Assembly (NCBI RefSeq): GCF_004302915.1
Contig: NZ_QQBI01000009.1
Span: 1 to 64,000 of the forward strand
DNA from: Komagataeibacter xylinus
GTDB lineage: Bacteria; Pseudomonadota; Alphaproteobacteria; Acetobacterales; Acetobacteraceae
Direction of reading: 5' to 3'
Length of the DNA stretch: 64,000 bases
The notes beneath the pieces are model-generated. The model searched no databases, was not told the origin of the DNA, and saw only the letters and a list, made by a program, of their open reading frames with translations. Below, piece after piece: positions 31,130-36,933 of this stretch (position 1 is the first letter of the stretch; the number at the start of each line of letters is the position of its first letter). Made by a program: the position numbers and the translations under genes.

Positions 31130-32032
31130 CTATTTCGTGCTTTTTCCCTTGCCCGTGGCCGAAGTCGCGGCGGGCACGGCAAAAGGATCGGTCACCGTGG
31201 CCGTGCCTGCAAGTTTGGCCCACTGGTCGGCCGCCGTCGTATCACCCGCCTGTCGCGCGCTCTGGCTGGCACGGGCATAAAGCTGGGCTGCCGCCTGTGC
31301 ATTGCCTGCCCTGGTCGCCGCGCGGGCGGCTACGCCAAGGGCGCGGGCCATGTCGCGGTAATGCACCTGTGTCTGGCGGATGGTCGCGGCCTGCAGCGCA
31401 TCCTGCCAGGCGGTCTGGGCGCTGCCGCCGGTGGCGAGCAGGTTGCGGGCCGCCATCTCCCTGGCATCCGCGCTCCAGCTATCGGGCAGCTTGCCGGTCA
31501 GCGTCTCGAAATACGCCGCGACCGAGGCCAGTGTCGCATGATCCCCGCTCTCATCGGCAATCAGCCCACGGATGAACTGGCCTTTCTCGGCAATGTCAGG
31601 ATCCTGCGCGCCCGCGGCAAGGGCGGCCTGTTGCGCGGCTTCCCCCTCGCGGCCCAGCCGGTGCAGCGCGCCGGCCTGCACCAGGTCCAGCCCCGTATCA
31701 TCCGTCGTCTGCCCGCGCAGCGCCAGCGCCGCCCGGGTTGAGGTAATGGTGGCCAGCGCATCCTGCGGCTTGTTTTCATCAAGCTGCACGGTGGCCAGAT
31801 TATAGCCTGCATCGCCTATGGCCGTAACGTCATCACGCGCCACGGCACGCTGGCCTGCCGCACGGTACTGCTGTTCGGCCACTGCAAGGCGGTCAAGCCC
31901 CACGGCATCGCGCCCGGTATCCATGTCCTGCGACAGGGTGCTGTCGGTCGGGGGGGGGGGGGTCTGCGCCCCGCCGCAGGCGGCAAGGCCCAGTGCAAGG
32001 CCCAGTGCCGCATAGTTTTTTTTCATCTTCAT
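31130..32032 (-). CDS. TPR-like lipoprotein, last gene of the MCE operon
   Basis: A 300-residue lipoprotein: signal MKMKKNYAALGLALGLAAC with the acylated Cys at 19, then helical repeat-like sequence (QYRAAGQRAVARDD, GDAGYNLATVQLDENK and similar) resembling TPR units, ending in a Ser/Lys-rich tail. It should sit on the periplasmic side of the inner or in the outer membrane and could link the MCE protein to partners. ATG 32032 overlaps the mlaD-like stop (ATGA). Residues 24-28 are encoded by a run of 13 G/C that could slip. It is not the PqiC-type lipoprotein usual in MCE operons. Confidence 0.75.
   Translation of the reverse strand: MKMKKNYAALGLALGLAACGGAQTPPPPTDSTLSQDMDTGRDAVGLDRLAVAEQQYRAAGQRAVARDDVTAIGDAGYNLATVQLDENKPQDALATITSTRAALALRGQTTDDTGLDLVQAGALHRLGREGEAAQQAALAAGAQDPDIAEKGQFIRGLIADESGDHATLASVAAYFETLTGKLPDSWSADAREMAARNLLATGGSAQTAWQDALQAATIRQTQVHYRDMARALGVAARAATRAGNAQAAAQLYARASQSARQAGDTTAADQWAKLAGTATVTDPFAVPAATSATGKGKSTK
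31950..31962 (-). repeat. Homopolymeric tract of 13 G (plus strand)
   Basis: Thirteen consecutive G on the plus strand encode Thr-Pro-Pro-Pro-Pro six residues past the acylated Cys of the lipoprotein. Gain or loss of one base would shift the frame and remove nearly the whole mature protein. Confidence 0.95.
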
Positions 32033-32979
32033 GGCTGCACCTTCTGCGCGGGAAGACGGGCATGGCCCTTCTTCACCTTGTTGCCGCTGCCGCCCAGCAG
32101 CCACATGCCCCGCATCTGGTCAACCAGCTTCTGCAGGCTGGCGGCCGTGGTCTGGGCCTGCACCAGAAGGACCGGAAGCTGCTGGCTGGCATCCTTCAGG
32201 TTGCTGGTGATGGCGGGTGTTGCATTGCTCAGGTCGCCCGTCGCCTTCTGCACGTTGCTCATCGAGGCACTGGCCTTGTCCATCACGGTGCCAAGCTGCT
32301 TCTCGATCGGGGTCAGTTGGCTGACCGTGGCGTCAAGGCTGGTGATCATCTGTTCCGCCTGGCGGATCAGGTCATCATTGGTCATGAGCCGCCCGATGGA
32401 GCCCTTGCCCGCATGCATGTCGGTAATGGTGGCATCGAGCGTTGCCATCATGTGCTGGGCGTTATCAAGAACCGGGATCACGCGGTCACGGATATCGCTG
32501 AAGGTCTGGGTAATGGTATCGGCCGGGTTGGGCGCGTTGGTGGCGCTGAGCACGGCGTAGCTCCAGTCCAGCTTCTCGCCCACGCCACGCGAGATGTCGA
32601 TATAGCTCGCCCCTGCCACCACGAAGCGCTTGCGGATGATGGCCGTGCTGTCGTGGCGGATATAGGGCTCGATGTCGGGGTCGATCTCGGCAACGGCGTA
32701 CATGCCGCCCGAGGGGTTGATGCGCACGCGGCGCACCGTGCCCGCATGGATGCCCATCACCTCGAGGTCATCGCCAACGGAAAGGCCGCTCACCCCGTCT
32801 TCAGGCAGCACGATGCGCAGCCTGCCCGCGGGCGTGAGCCAGTCGCGCAGCACGCCAGCCTCGATCACCGCGCCAAACAGGATGACAAGGGCGACCAGAA
32901 CGAGGATGCCCACCCATTCATCGGCGTAACGGACGCGCACAAGCTGCCGGATTCCGTCTGACTGTTGTTTCTGCACCAT
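32029..32979 (-). CDS. MlaD/MCE domain lipid-binding protein
   Basis: A 316-residue protein with one N-terminal membrane anchor (about 22-44, ILVLVALVILFGAVIEAG), one MCE domain (about 48-140: RIVLPEDGVSGLSVGDDLEVMGIHAG...) and a long helical coiled-coil-like C-terminal region (about 150-300, DNAQHMMATLDATITDMH). MCE domains form hexameric rings that pass phospholipids between membranes. The helical tail may form a tunnel or needle, as in longer MCE proteins. ATG overlaps the upstream ABC stop (TAATG), and the lipoprotein start overlaps its stop. Confidence 0.88.
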   Translation of the reverse strand: MVQKQQSDGIRQLVRVRYADEWVGILVLVALVILFGAVIEAGVLRDWLTPAGRLRIVLPEDGVSGLSVGDDLEVMGIHAGTVRRVRINPSGGMYAVAEIDPDIEPYIRHDSTAIIRKRFVVAGASYIDISRGVGEKLDWSYAVLSATNAPNPADTITQTFSDIRDRVIPVLDNAQHMMATLDATITDMHAGKGSIGRLMTNDDLIRQAEQMITSLDATVSQLTPIEKQLGTVMDKASASMSNVQKATGDLSNATPAITSNLKDASQQLPVLLVQAQTTAASLQKLVDQMRGMWLLGGSGNKVKKGHARLPAQKVQP

Positions 32980-33674
32980 TACACCACCCGCAGGGAAAAA
33001 AGACCTTCGTCAAGAAGGCGCATGTGGATATTCACCGCCTTACGATAGGCATGCCACGCAGCAGAGGAGCGGACGAACCACAGCACCCCGCAGCCACGGT
33101 CGCGCGCAGCGGTCATCGTTTCAAAAAACGGCAGGACCGTCTCTTCTGGCAGCATGTCCGAGATATCTTCCAGTATCAGCAGGTCCGGTCGCCCCATGAA
33201 GGCCCGCACGCAGGCCGCCCGCGCCAGATCCGCGCTGGAAAGCCGGTCTGGCGCGGTAATGGGCAGGCCGGGAAAGCCGAAAGTATGCCCAAGCTCGGTT
33301 GCGCGCCGGACCACGTGCTCGAACGGGTCTGTCGTATGGTACAGGTGCGGCAGCATGATGTTGAGATGCGTGCCGAACAGGCTCAGCCAGCTACCATGGC
33401 GCGAGATGCGGCCAATACGCCCGCGCAGCGCGTTGAGCTGCCGGTCATACAGCGTGCTCCAGTCCAGCCCCATGAACTTGATGCTGCCCTGCGTGAGCGG
33501 GATCATGCCCGTGCACAGGTCAGCGAACATGGCGGCGCGCTCGAAGTCACGGCAGTCGATCACCGCGCATTCACCCGGCATGATGCGCAGGTTGTAGGGC
33601 GCGGGCATGAGGCCGCTTTCCTCGAACGAGGGCACGGCGTCGCGTAGTTCCAGCAGGGGCGCGTTTGCTGCCAT
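32979..33674 (-). CDS. Degenerate ABC transporter ATP-binding subunit of the MCE system
   Basis: A 231-residue protein with the length and domain order of MlaF-like ATPases but without their motifs. The Walker A position (about 37-50) reads VIDCRDFERAAMF, with no GxxGxGKS. The signature region (145-149) is LSSAD instead of LSGGQ, Walker B (165-170) is LLILED, and the H-loop His is replaced (LWFVRSSAAW). It can hardly hydrolyse ATP alone. ATG 33674 lies 2 nt after the mlaE-like stop; the longer frame is a shadow of that gene. It may be a structural subunit, or work with an intact ATPase encoded elsewhere. Confidence 0.72.
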   Translation of the reverse strand: MAANAPLLELRDAVPSFEESGLMPAPYNLRIMPGECAVIDCRDFERAAMFADLCTGMIPLTQGSIKFMGLDWSTLYDRQLNALRGRIGRISRHGSWLSLFGTHLNIMLPHLYHTTDPFEHVVRRATELGHTFGFPGLPITAPDRLSSADLARAACVRAFMGRPDLLILEDISDMLPEETVLPFFETMTAARDRGCGVLWFVRSSAAWHAYRKAVNIHMRLLDEGLFSLRVV

Positions 33675-33676
33675 GG

Positions 33677-34573
33677 TCAGAAATCCAGCATGAAGAGGAT
33701 ATTGACCACCAGCACCAGCATGATCCCGCGGGCGAAGCCGCGCGGCATGATGGTGGCCATCGTATCGTTGCTGCTGACGGTCAGCCCCGAAATGCACGCC
33801 CCCAGCCCGACAAAGAAACCGACAAGCACGAATTTGAGCGGGATGATGAGGTAATCCCACGTGGTCATGGCGGCCAGCACGTTGAAGAAGAACGTCCAGA
33901 CCGAGGAGGTGATCGCACCGCTGGCATGCGCCACCACAAACCCCATGAGCAGCGACACGACCGCGAAGATCATGCCCAGCGTAAAGCCACCCACCGTAAA
34001 GGCGAAGGTGCGCGGCATGACCAGCGCCAGGAAGGGGTCGATGCCACGCGCCTGCAGGCCGCGCACCTCGCCGCCAAGCACCATCATGCCGATCTCGGTC
34101 AGCGACAGCATGCCACTGCGGCCCATCAGGATGATGCCCACGAGAATGGGCGCGATTTCACGCACCAGCACCGATACCAGGATCGAGCCCGTCATCTGCG
34201 CCATGCCGGCATAGCCCAGCCAGTACGCCGCCTGCGACACGACCATCAGGCCCGCGAGGGTTGCGGTAATGACAATGCTCAGGAAGCCGCCGCCAATCAC
34301 CTGCCGCAAGGTAGCGCGGAATTCATAGATGACCGGCCGACGCCATGAATTGGGGCGCAGGCTCTCGCGCAGCGTGCCCCACCCCGCCCCGATCAGCAGG
34401 AGCGTGAAGCGGACCTGGTGGCGCGTCAGCCGCCCGAGTGCCGCAAGCCAGGGCGCGAAACGCCCGACCAGCGTAGCGAAACGGTCCGTATCCCCGCTCT
34501 CCTCTGGCGGGGCCATCTGGGCCAGCACGCTTGATGCCTGCTGCTCGGGCGGCGGGGGAGCGTTCTGTGTCAT
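33677..34573 (-). CDS. MlaE/YrbE family permease
   Basis: A 298-residue inner-membrane permease with five or six hydrophobic segments between about 60 and 298. The MlaE family motif is visible around FGAGAQGI-equivalent positions and in GLGACISGLTVSSNDTMA near the C-terminus; EVRGLQARGIDPFLALVMPR (about 167-186) is the family coupling-helix region that touches the ATPase. The N-terminal 45 residues (NAPPPPEQQASSVLAQMAPP) are an extra, Pro-rich tail. It overlaps the sensor gene by ATGA and pairs with MlaD and the degenerate ABC protein. Confidence 0.85.
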   Translation of the reverse strand: MTQNAPPPPEQQASSVLAQMAPPEESGDTDRFATLVGRFAPWLAALGRLTRHQVRFTLLLIGAGWGTLRESLRPNSWRRPVIYEFRATLRQVIGGGFLSIVITATLAGLMVVSQAAYWLGYAGMAQMTGSILVSVLVREIAPILVGIILMGRSGMLSLTEIGMMVLGGEVRGLQARGIDPFLALVMPRTFAFTVGGFTLGMIFAVVSLLMGFVVAHASGAITSSVWTFFFNVLAAMTTWDYLIIPLKFVLVGFFVGLGACISGLTVSSNDTMATIMPRGFARGIMLVLVVNILFMLDF

Positions 34574-36933
34574 CGCCGCCCGGCCAGCACATAGGTGCGC
34601 GTCAGACCCGCGCCGGGAATGAAGAAGCGCCCGCGCTCACGGAACAGGAAGTTCTGGCGCAGCTGGTGATAGACGTCCTCCGTCACCTGAATGGTGCCGA
34701 CATCGGGCGCGCCCTGCGCCATCATCTCGGCCATGCCCATGGCATCGCCCCACAGGTTGAAGGCCTGCGGCGCGTTGCCGAGCATGCCGCCAAAGACGGG
34801 GCCGACATCAATGCCGATGCGGAAGACGGGGTCGAGGTCTTCCTTGGCCAGGACGGCCAGCGTGTTTTCACGCATCATCAGCGCCGCATTGGCCATGCGG
34901 AAGACCGCTCCCTTGTCGGGCGTGTGCGAGCAGCCCGCCACGCACACCACGCGGTGGCCAAGCATGCGGATGGAGAACAGCCCGCACTGACGGGCGATGT
35001 CCTGCAGCATGCCCGCCATTGAATCGATCAGCTTGAGGTTGGCCATCGGGTCGTTCTGGGCTGTCATGACCATGTCCGACAGGCTGATGACCATGATGGC
35101 CACGGCAGGGAAGAACCCTTCCATATTGGCCAGGTCCTGCGCCGAGGGCTGGCCGTTCATGCCCAGGCTGCCGGGCGCCAGCAGGAAGCCCTGGCTGGGA
35201 TCATGCGGCACTTCATCGGGCGAAGGCTCGGATTCCAGTTCCTCGCGCGCGGCGGCCACCGCCGTGTAATGCTGGGCGGAGAAGCGTGCCGCCGTAACGC
35301 CTGCCATCATCTCCACGAAATGGGAGACAATCCCCGCCCGTGGCGCATCCTCAAGCGTGATGACGCCAACCGGGCCGCTGCTGCCCAGAATGGGGCTGCA
35401 GAACAGCGCCCGGCTGCCAAACGAGCGCATGTAGATGCGGTAGAACGCCCCGACCCGCTCATCGGCCGCCGCATTCTCCGTTGTCAGCACATCACCATGC
35501 GAGACGGCATCGAAAAAGGTCTTGAGGTCCGTGGTGGCCATCTCGAAGCCACCGGAATGCACATCCTGCTGCCTGTCGTAGGAATCGATGCACATCAGCG
35601 TATGCCCGTCATGCAGGATACGCCAGATGGCGGCCCGGCGGGCATGGGACTGGTCGGCCAGGGTCTCGGTCAGCAGCAGGGCGTTATCTTCGGGATTGAA
35701 CAGGTCCGGGTAGGTCGCGACCGATTGCAGGGCATGGCTCTCGTATGTGGCCACGGCGCGGGACCTGGCAATCTGCGCGCGCATGTGGTCGGCCCGGCGC
35801 GCCTGCAAAAACAAAAGCAGGCCCAGCCCCGAGGCCAGAATCACGACCAGCACGGTAAAGAGCAGGTTCTGCCGCCCATCCGCCATGGCGAACTGCGAGA
35901 AGTCATCCTCCGGCGCCACGAGCAGCAGCACCCAGCTATCGGTGCCAACCGGCAGGTTGGCCGTGATGGTGACGTAGTTCTTGCCTTTTACACGGACCGT
36001 GCGCGCCCCATCGCCATGAACGCGGTATTCATCAAACGCCTTGGTCATGACCGGAAAGTGATTCGGGTCGAGCTTCATCCTGTCGGGGTCGCCACCTGCG
36101 GCGGCCTCGGCCTCCTGCATGCCGTGGCCTGCCAGCACATGCCCGTCGCGATCCATCAAGATGGCGTTGCCGCTTTCACCAATGCGCAGGGAATTGAGGA
36201 ATTTGTTCAGATGCGCCAGCGACATGTTGATGGCATAGACATAGGTCTTGTCATCCTGCCCCTTATAGGGAATGGCTGCCGTAAGCGTCAGCTGCCGCGT
36301 CACTTCCACGATATAGGGATGGGTCCAGTGCAACTGGCCCGCCTTGACCGTATCGGCAAACCAGGCATGGCCGCGCGGGTCGTAGCTGCCGCCGGGGGTC
36401 TGCCACTGCCTGAGCACCTTGCCATTGGCGTCACGCAGTTCATGGGTGAAGACGGACGGCTTGTTCGCCTCCCTGACCAGGGTGGTCAGAGCCACTTCCT
36501 GCTCGTTCTCGCCATGTTCGAGCGTGCTGAAATTGCCATCGCCATCAGCGATGTAGAAGGACTGGATCTGCGGCACGTTGCGCAGCATGGTGCTGCTGTA
36601 GCCCATGAAGATCTTCTGTTCCACCGCGGGCGCGCCATGTTCGAGCATGTCACGCGCCACCACGCTGCCGGACGATGCCGGGGCGAGGAAGGAATTGACT
36701 TCCTTGGCGATGTAATCCTGCTGGCTGACCAGCAGTTCATGCGTCAGGGCAAGGGCGCCGGTGCGCACCGTGCGGTAGGAATGCCAGCCAAAGCCTGCGA
36801 TGATGGCAATGATGCCCACCACGCACCCGACGGGCACGCCCACATGCAGCAGGAAACGCTTGACCTGATCGGAAGGGGCAATCGTGGGATCGACAATCTC
36901 GTCCGTGGACAATGCTCTCTTCCTGTTCAACAC
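34570..36933 (-). CDS. Cache-GAF sensor with degenerate class III nucleotide cyclase domain
   Basis: A 787-residue membrane sensor, first gene of the MCE operon. Segments: TM1 (28-50), periplasmic double-Cache-like domain (about 55-350), TM2 (357-376), GAF domain (about 410-550), linker, then a class III adenylate/guanylate cyclase fold (about 607-785) identified by RIGIDVGPVFGG (705-716) and FNLWGDAMGMA (725-735). The metal sites look lost: AIMVISLSDMVM (612-623) replaces FADIxGFT, and MLGHRVV (657-663) has His660 where Asp is needed; the NxxxR pair is absent (GMAEMM). It may sense a periplasmic ligand and control the transporter by protein contact. ATG 36933 is the only well-placed start. 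Confidence 0.78.
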   Translation of the reverse strand: MLNRKRALSTDEIVDPTIAPSDQVKRFLLHVGVPVGCVVGIIAIIAGFGWHSYRTVRTGALALTHELLVSQQDYIAKEVNSFLAPASSGSVVARDMLEHGAPAVEQKIFMGYSSTMLRNVPQIQSFYIADGDGNFSTLEHGENEQEVALTTLVREANKPSVFTHELRDANGKVLRQWQTPGGSYDPRGHAWFADTVKAGQLHWTHPYIVEVTRQLTLTAAIPYKGQDDKTYVYAINMSLAHLNKFLNSLRIGESGNAILMDRDGHVLAGHGMQEAEAAAGGDPDRMKLDPNHFPVMTKAFDEYRVHGDGARTVRVKGKNYVTITANLPVGTDSWVLLLVAPEDDFSQFAMADGRQNLLFTVLVVILASGLGLLLFLQARRADHMRAQIARSRAVATYESHALQSVATYPDLFNPEDNALLLTETLADQSHARRAAIWRILHDGHTLMCIDSYDRQQDVHSGGFEMATTDLKTFFDAVSHGDVLTTENAAADERVGAFYRIYMRSFGSRALFCSPILGSSGPVGVITLEDAPRAGIVSHFVEMMAGVTAARFSAQHYTAVAAAREELESEPSPDEVPHDPSQGFLLAPGSLGMNGQPSAQDLANMEGFFPAVAIMVISLSDMVMTAQNDPMANLKLIDSMAGMLQDIARQCGLFSIRMLGHRVVCVAGCSHTPDKGAVFRMANAALMMRENTLAVLAKEDLDPVFRIGIDVGPVFGGMLGNAPQAFNLWGDAMGMAEMMAQGAPDVGTIQVTEDVYHQLRQNFLFRERGRFFIPGAGLTRTYVLAGRR

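Follow-up and report, generated by a model that had tools for sequence, protein, structure and literature searches.

A conserved five-gene MCE operon of Komagataeibacter combines an NBD-fold subunit without ATP motifs and a cyclase-fold receptor without the catalytic Asn/Arg pair

Introduction

Among the MCE systems of Escherichia coli, PqiAB and LetAB have no ABC ATPase and use the membrane proteins PqiA and LetA, not MlaE with a subunit of nucleotide-binding domain (NBD) fold, and MlaFEDB combines a permease of the MlaE family, an MCE protein and an NBD-fold subunit. Lipid movement between two membranes, its direction and the power source of each MCE system are an open question, which we address here with an operon of Komagataeibacter xylinus, formed by five minus-strand genes at positions 31130-36933 of a 64,000-nucleotide (nt) stretch of DNA (contig NZ_QQBI01000009.1, positions 1 to 64,000; hereafter the window) and encoding, in order, a sensor, MlaE, an ABC subunit, a long MlaD and a lipoprotein. 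We found that the two domains of ATP-using type in this operon, the NBD of the ABC subunit (pseudo-NBD) and the cyclase-fold end of the sensor (pseudocyclase), have lost their catalytic motifs and that the operon is conserved all the same, which suggests a lipid system that departs from the usual mode of energization. The operon anatomy and the loss of ATP motifs we regard as close to certain. As an explanation we propose a distinct, Mla-type MCE subclass in which a non-ATPase NBD would cap the permease and a pseudocyclase receptor would control its gating, giving an ATP-independent lipid path; in our judgment this proposal falls just short of even probability.

Compared with MlaFEDB, the window system has an NBD without ATP motifs, a long MlaD, a leading receptor and an extra tetratricopeptide repeat (TPR) lipoprotein, and its operon includes neither MlaB nor MlaC. 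Brucella Mpc (MpcEFDA) shares the plan of MlaE, ABC subunit, long MlaD and lipoprotein, but in the available part of its report the lipoprotein is PqiC-like and the four-gene mpc operon has no sensor, whereas the window operon has a TPR lipoprotein and a sensor; PqiB and PqiC are also mentioned in that text (PMC12436622). The likely Mpc counterpart in the window genome is another operon, C46, whose MlaF has an intact Walker A motif, unlike the window's ABC subunit. According to the accessible portions of two reports, long MlaD forms occur in systems thought to span the periplasm (PMC10665443, PMC12436622). The trans-envelope MlaD system of Veillonella resembles the window system in its MlaEFD core, elongated MlaD and lack of MlaC, but has a beta-barrel at the MlaD end and, as far as the available text goes, no described sensor (PMC10665443). 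Mycobacterial Mce1 (YrbE-MceG) with Mce1N likewise has MlaE-like permeases and an NBD occupancy that another protein can regulate, but MceG is an active, shared ATPase, and the part of the source at hand describes neither a pseudo-NBD nor a cyclase-fold receptor (PMC10517005). For the sensor, the C-terminal fold is that of class III nucleotide cyclases (PDB 5o5k and kin; E 1.7e-20), from which it departs by the loss of the transition-state residues, joined in nearly all sensors of the window's family by loss of the second metal Asp. An initial annotation, made from the sequence of the window, had called a receptor of this kind in an MCE operon unfamiliar. In the open-access literature searched (titles and beginnings of abstracts, a scope that leaves preprints and most subscription papers outside), we likewise found no counterpart, that is, no cyclase-fold sensor with mlaE and no Walker-less MlaF.

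Results

The ABC subunit keeps the NBD fold and lacks the ATP motifs

The initial reading of the five proteins as sensor, MlaE, ABC subunit, MlaD and lipoprotein was borne out, but it had missed that the ABC subunit has no ATP motifs and that the cyclase domain has no catalytic residues. A first clue to degeneracy was an ABC_tran score of 18.4 bits against a cut-off of 25. Alignment with the genome's own MlaF places CRDFERAA at the P-loop GGSGTGKS, LSSAD at the signature LSGGM, ILEDI at the Walker B FFDEP and Arg at the H-loop His. Across 142 ABC sequences (58 from family loci and 84 further ones, with some organisms repeated and one truncated open reading frame (ORF), in locus L050), neither the Walker A Lys nor the pattern G-x4-GK[ST] nor the signature Gly-Gly was found in any (0/142 each); the Walker B Asp is present in one (Glu stands there in 140), Asp and Glu never occur together (0/142), and the H-loop His is kept in two (L064 and L081). 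As a control, GxSGxGKS was recovered near 30/30 canonical mlaE loci from 23 genomes that also hold the pseudo-NBD system, these 30 being the loci returned by the search and not all matches.

The fold itself is retained. The AlphaFold2 (AF2) model of the ABC subunit, built from 41 sequences, has a predicted local distance difference test (pLDDT) score of 90.9 and matches LolD, FtsE, MacB and MlaF with TM-scores of ~0.75-0.82 and Z of ~22-25 (Z of 25.2 to LolD and 23.2 to MlaF, with 22-23 across the MlaF chains); the fold searches of the operon proteins returned only the expected NBD and TPR folds. At the place of the P-loop the model has a strand at residues 36-40 and a helix from residue 44, and as we read it there would be no room for a P-loop. 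Mean column entropy reaches 2.52 at the P-loop equivalent; the H-loop has 2.09, the signature 1.64 and Walker B 1.21, against 1.90 overall, but the stretches ALRGRIGR and AACVRAFMG have 0.41 and 0.27, respectively; judged from these columns, conservation has shifted away from the nucleotide site. The ratio of nonsynonymous to synonymous substitution rates (dN/dS) of the ABC gene is 0.07-0.21 in eight within-genus comparisons, like that of its neighbors. By its motifs the ABC subunit is a pseudo-ATPase that retains the NBD fold and is held under purifying selection. Its identification as an ordinary MlaF ATPase was rejected on the absence of the ATP motifs, and we expect that automatic annotation as an ABC transporter ATP-binding protein would probably mask such a pseudo-NBD.

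One separate locus deserves mention here. L257 (genome G1276; 103.7 bits), in the phylum of the distant locus L176, encodes an MlaF-like ABC subunit beside a long MlaD, with an intact Walker A, Gln for the catalytic Glu and a degenerate signature, and is perhaps an intermediate toward the pseudo-NBD.

The cyclase-fold end of the sensor has lost catalytic residues

The sensor's dCache_1 match, 0.2 bits below the cut-off in the window, rises above it in the distant orthologues L176, L178 and L189 (61.9-67.1 bits), and the best solved Cache chains are those of PctA. Its cyclase domain is the sole PF00211 match in the genome (E<=0.001). Against a solved cyclase chain, the window protein has His at the second metal Asp, Gly at the transition-state Asn and Met at the transition-state Arg. 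The Asn/Arg pair is absent from 67/67 sensors, with a few keeping one member (e.g., Asn in L178 and Arg in L189), and the second metal Asp is present in 2/56 other family sensors. The usual motif of the first metal Asp is also absent from 67/67, a gap-free HMMER alignment placing Ser and a gapped MAFFT alignment Asp there in the window. The stretch FN[LI]WG is kept in most sensors. We take the cyclase end, from these residues, to have lost catalysis and to have retained its fold and probably its dimer. Nucleotide-cyclase signaling as the output of the sensor is not supported, given the missing pair and the near-constant loss of the second metal Asp in the family, and active cyclase signaling by the window protein was rejected on the loss of its catalytic residues.

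Two degenerate enzymes together with a Cache-GAF receptor are more typical of signaling than of pumping, and the complex could instead be a receptor or tether, with the MCE ring sensing the state of lipid or envelope and the sensor integrating the signal. We consider this decidedly unlikely, as no known output domain accompanies the system: the cyclase end has no catalytic pair, a Pfam scan of the five proteins returned no kinase and no regulator, and the flanking genes examined are not common to the distant loci. MlaE and MlaD are, in addition, under purifying selection.

The operon is conserved across the family and recurs in distant lineages

The closest loci in named genomes are those of Komagataeibacter, with ABC subunits 97-98% identical to that of the window. 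The ABC gene was found in 19/19 genus genomes (identity 83-100%), which rules out an assembly artefact confined to the window, and in 90/299 family genomes from 35/102 genera (E<=1e-12, window protein as query). For the other 209 there was no match at this threshold, and a profile reaches more distant members, so that 90 is a lower bound; the ABC profile matched 153/299 genomes of the order sample (E<=1e-25). In the 58 family loci, MlaE, the ABC subunit and MlaD lie on one strand without exception (58/58), the sensor lies upstream in 56 (both exceptions belong to genus g95), and a lipoprotein match lies downstream in 50, some of the eight missing ones being near contig ends.

A sensor orthologue was detected in 92/299 family genomes (sensor profile, E<=1e-40). 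Sensor and ABC gene are both present in 88 genomes and share one contig in all of them (88/88), with match starts at most 4266 nt apart, which supports the assignment of the sensor to the MCE operon in the initial annotation. That annotation would have been refuted by relatives in which the sensor does not stay beside the MCE genes, and the counts go the other way. The ABC gene occurs without the sensor in G245 and G275, two genomes of one genus. The reverse case was seen in G108, G125, G179 and G301, where the sensor lies on the minus strand and its match ends at contig base 1, 2, 2 and 102, respectively, so that any following genes would fall past the contig end. A loose or accidental neighborhood is ruled out by the 58 family loci and the 88/88 sensor-ABC linkage.

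The link between sensor and MCE genes extends beyond the family. L109 and L110 are complete units from two further families of the class. A scan of named genomes, made with one peptide pattern and taking the best 80 of 100 confirmed relatives, recovered Desulfobacterales, deltaproteobacterial, gammaproteobacterial, Sedimentisphaerales and Limisphaerales metagenome-assembled genomes (MAGs). A sensor match was present in 77 of these best 80 loci; L118 is cut by a contig end, and L188 and L190 have none. Intact five-gene loci are found in distant lineages, although the members listed outside Alphaproteobacteria are all MAGs, in which single loci may be contamination. Outside the family the system is rare: it was found in 4/299 genomes of the window's phylum sample (three of these within the family), in 1/297 genomes of the phylum of L176 (L176's own, besides the partial L257), and in 6/385 genomes of a class search above 240 bits, four from the family. 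A further 52 genomes listed in the class search at E<=1e-20 scored below 90 bits and were classed as canonical by score. Flanking genes of the distant operons (10 proteins at six loci) are not common among loci and yielded no extra partner, and these differing neighbors indicate that the unit consists of the five genes; upstream of the L188 operon, which has no sensor, an ORF of 725 aa gave no Pfam match at E<=0.01. The arrangement is thus real, conserved and stranger than first described. A generalization to a whole class of receptor-gated, energy-independent MCE systems, with the NBD turned into a non-catalytic coupling plate that links a pseudocyclase-ended ligand receptor to an MlaE/MCE channel, we hold tentatively and with the balance leaning somewhat against it. 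The same guarded weight applies to the possible scope of such a class, which would take in several proteobacterial classes and Desulfobacterales and would be receptorless at the planctomycete and verrucomicrobial MAG loci.

Conservation also bears on whether the operon is simply decaying. Reading frames are disrupted in L050 (one genome of genus g47) and in L082 (a genome 81% complete), but dN/dS is 0.05-0.21 within the genus across all five genes, 19/19 genus genomes keep the ABC gene, and distant loci are intact. Decay is refuted as a general account and in that role is extremely improbable, while single lineages may have undergone it; recent decay was likewise rejected on the low within-genus dN/dS. 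The operon of L050 (G143) is disrupted and that of L049, of the same genus, is full-length, which indicates decay of a single lineage. Odd lengths at L039, L050, L080 and L082 come from automatic start or frame choice. The distant set also includes L252, which gives the Sedimentisphaerales MAG of L188 (G1074) a second MCE locus with a pseudo-NBD.

The neighboring MlaE forms its own clade with an altered, putative NBD-docking segment

In a tree of 101 MlaE sequences (45 pseudo-type and 56 labeled canonical, with L248, L249, L253, L254 and L255 left out as pseudo-type already present or as truncated), one branch with full support (100/100) separates the permeases adjacent to a pseudo-NBD from canonical ones. 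The exception is L252, labeled canonical, which falls in the pseudo clade; its ABC subunit also has no Walker A. Within the pseudo clade the sensorless L188 and L190 (with L252) branch first, and the sensorless g95 pair is nested inside, a topology that suggests that the dead NBD came first, that the receptor joined later and that it was lost in g95.

In MlaFEDB, the coupling helix that contacts MlaF sits between transmembrane helices 2 and 3 (TM2-TM3), as stated in the available part of its structural report (PMC7790496). In the corresponding segment (canonical QIDAL), Asp is found in 49/55 canonical sequences and Arg at the same place in 31/46 pseudo-type MlaE. The residue before the Gln/Glu is Glu, Asp, Asn or Gln in 55/55 canonical sequences versus Gly in 42/46 pseudo-type ones, and a further Gly in the segment is present in 46/46 versus 18/55. 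Judged from its position, the altered segment would be the coupling helix, and a change in a part of MlaE that would dock the NBD points to a private NBD partner.

The chief rival to our proposal concerns exactly this partner: a canonical MlaF could be shared and power this MlaE, and the pseudo-NBD would be a placeholder or regulator that competes or pairs with MlaF, or that holds the permease inactive until the sensor releases it. Another MlaE is indeed encoded in every genome checked (23/23, and 12/12 distant ones), each with at least one having a Walker A nearby. The window genome has two more MlaE genes, both with a downstream MlaF whose P-loop is intact, at C57 (MlaE-MlaF) and at C46 (MlaE, MlaF, MlaD and lipoprotein). 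Among the distant mlaE loci, Walker A was found in 24/30; of the six without it, the pseudo-NBD itself was seen for L248, L252 and L255, by their scores we take L253 and L254 to be the loci L174 and L190, and L249 runs into a contig end. There is also a precedent, in that the accessible part of one report describes a mycobacterial MceG whose gene lies apart from the mce operons and which is presumed to be shared, with Mce1N blocking MceG-YrbE1B binding (PMC10517005). The systematic divergence of the TM2-TM3 segment speaks mildly against sharing, being what a private partner would lead one to expect. The pseudo-NBD gene also accompanies this mlaE type in 58/58 family loci and in L069, L070, L188 and L190, an association that is not independent since the loci were found by that gene. 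On this evidence we consider a shared canonical MlaF unlikely, though it is the alternative to be taken most seriously.

Two observations concern the canonical genes of the window genome. The C57 pair (L004 5348-7086, genome G000) has no adjoining MlaD ORF, and MlaD-family matches lie on contigs C18, C9, C16 and C3, so that the canonical Mla genes look split.

Discussion

A proposed receptor-gated lipid path that would not draw on ATP

When two ATP-using domains are both without catalytic residues and both are kept, the most economical view is that they serve as structural parts. In the mechanism we propose, the MlaE dimer in the inner membrane would carry an NBD-shaped subunit without an ATP site in place of the ATPase, the long MlaD ring would extend into the periplasm, and the TPR lipoprotein would meet this ring, probably at the outer membrane. 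The system would be neither powered nor controlled by ATP hydrolysis at the pseudo-NBD. Instead, the co-translated receptor would sense a periplasmic ligand through dCache, and perhaps a cytoplasmic ligand through GAF, and its dimeric pseudocyclase end would act as a protein-protein lever on the assembly of pseudo-NBD and MlaE, the pseudo-NBD being a structural plate under MlaE and the pseudocyclase dimer the moving end of the receptor. The complex would thereby be a gated passive (or gradient-driven) lipid conduit, and in MCE transport without an ABC ATPase it would resemble PqiAB and LetAB. Formation of the complex, its lipid substrate, independence from ATP, gating by the receptor and direction of flow are what we infer from the gene unit, its conservation, the loss of motifs at both ATP-using sites, the retained folds, purifying selection and the altered MlaE segment, all of which are observed in the sequences.

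The operon is a natural experiment in which ATPase activity, as judged by motif, has been removed from an otherwise Mla-like machine and kept so across distant lineages. It leaves two options, lipid movement by MlaE/MCE complexes without ATP or an NBD that is purely structural, a receptor-controlled switch; the operon is also a case of two pseudoenzymes, pseudo-NBD and pseudocyclase, kept together.

Several observations weigh against this proposal. Glu stands at the place of the catalytic Glu in 17/142 ABC sequences, and the motif test may leave room for nucleotide binding at an unorthodox site. The second metal Asp, by eye, is kept in 7/11 distant sensors, and a gapped MAFFT alignment, if its gap is right, puts Asp at the first metal place in the window and in 33/56 other family sensors; by alignment, the distant cyclase ends are less decayed than those of the family, for the first metal again provided that the aligner's gap is right. 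With the Glu at the Walker B Asp place (140/142) and the surviving FN[LI]WG, these features could mean that nucleotide use persists, through a non-canonical site, in the ABC subunit or the cyclase domain. We regard this as very improbable, given that the P-loop Lys and glycine loop are gone from 142/142 ABC sequences, that strand and helix close in on the P-loop place in the AF2 model (to residue 40 and from residue 44), and that no sensor among 67 has the Asn/Arg pair. A different objection comes from the loci that have the pseudo-NBD system without a sensor, namely the two g95 genomes (L069, L070), Sedimentisphaerales L188 and Limisphaerales L190, according to which the pseudo-NBD does not need a receptor and the sensor is not indispensable. 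Likewise, with a canonical MlaE and a nearby Walker A in all genomes checked (23/23; 12/12 distant), genome content cannot decide on a shared motor. Finally, transport, ATP independence and contact between sensor and MlaE are predictions from sequence.

Operon features and minor observations

All five ORFs were found in the order and at the coordinates first annotated, with agreeing Pfam families (Table 1), and the junctions, an ATGA overlap (4 nt), a 2-nt gap, TAATG and ATGA in gene order, are also as first given. The sensor-mlaE ATGA overlap recurs in 38/56 family loci under automatic start choice, and such overlapping genes fit a shared complex. MlaB, MlaC and MlaA are not among the five operon genes, to which the Pfam scan was restricted.

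Table 1 Features of the five-gene MCE operon in the window
Feature	Position	Strand	Remarks
Sensor gene	34570..36933	-	787 aa, GTG start; TM1, periplasmic dCache, TM2, GAF, class III cyclase fold (pseudocyclase); transmembrane (TM) segments by eye
dCache_1 domain, sensor residues 120-335	35929..36576	-	Pfam PF02743, 44.8 bits (cut-off 45)
GAF domain, sensor residues 420-543	35305..35676	-	Pfam PF01590, 26.1 bits (cut-off 22.4)
Class III cyclase fold, sensor residues 611-784	34582..35103	-	PF00211 Guanylate_cyc, 71.7 bits (cut-off 21.9)
MlaE permease, 298 aa	33677..34573	-	PF02405, 116.2 bits (cut-off 22.5); TM2-TM3 segment altered
ABC subunit, 231 aa (pseudo-NBD)	32979..33674	-	NBD fold; Walker A absent; signature, Walker B and H-loop degenerate
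P-loop equivalent CRDFERAA	33531..33554	-	Aligned to GGSGTGKS of the genome's own MlaF
Walker B equivalent PDLLILEDI	33162..33188	-	Glu at the Asp place, Asp at the catalytic Glu place
MlaD-type MCE protein, long form, 316 aa	32029..32979	-	PF02470, 40.9 bits (cut-off 25.1); also by genome search
MCE domain of MlaD	32584..32793	-	Pfam and genome search
TPR-fold lipoprotein, 300 aa	31130..32032	-	Lipobox Cys19 followed by Gly; outer-membrane sorting predicted

The lipoprotein has no Pfam family above cut-off and no PqiC-type match at E<=1. Its AF2 model (pLDDT 91.2) is all helices and matches the TPR superhelix by fold, a match also made by Pfam in L176, and the lipobox Cys19 is invariant in 36/36 aligned lipoproteins; it is a TPR protein and not PqiC-like. 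Just past the lipobox, the gene has a run of 13 C (31950-31962, minus strand), whereas close relatives with a comparable stretch have 5-8; the run could mark a site of slippage (phase variation) or reflect an error of assembly. In G001, G004, G012, G013, G047 and G133, the ABC gene lies ~29-62 kb from the contig's first base, perhaps a constant position with respect to where the assembly starts.

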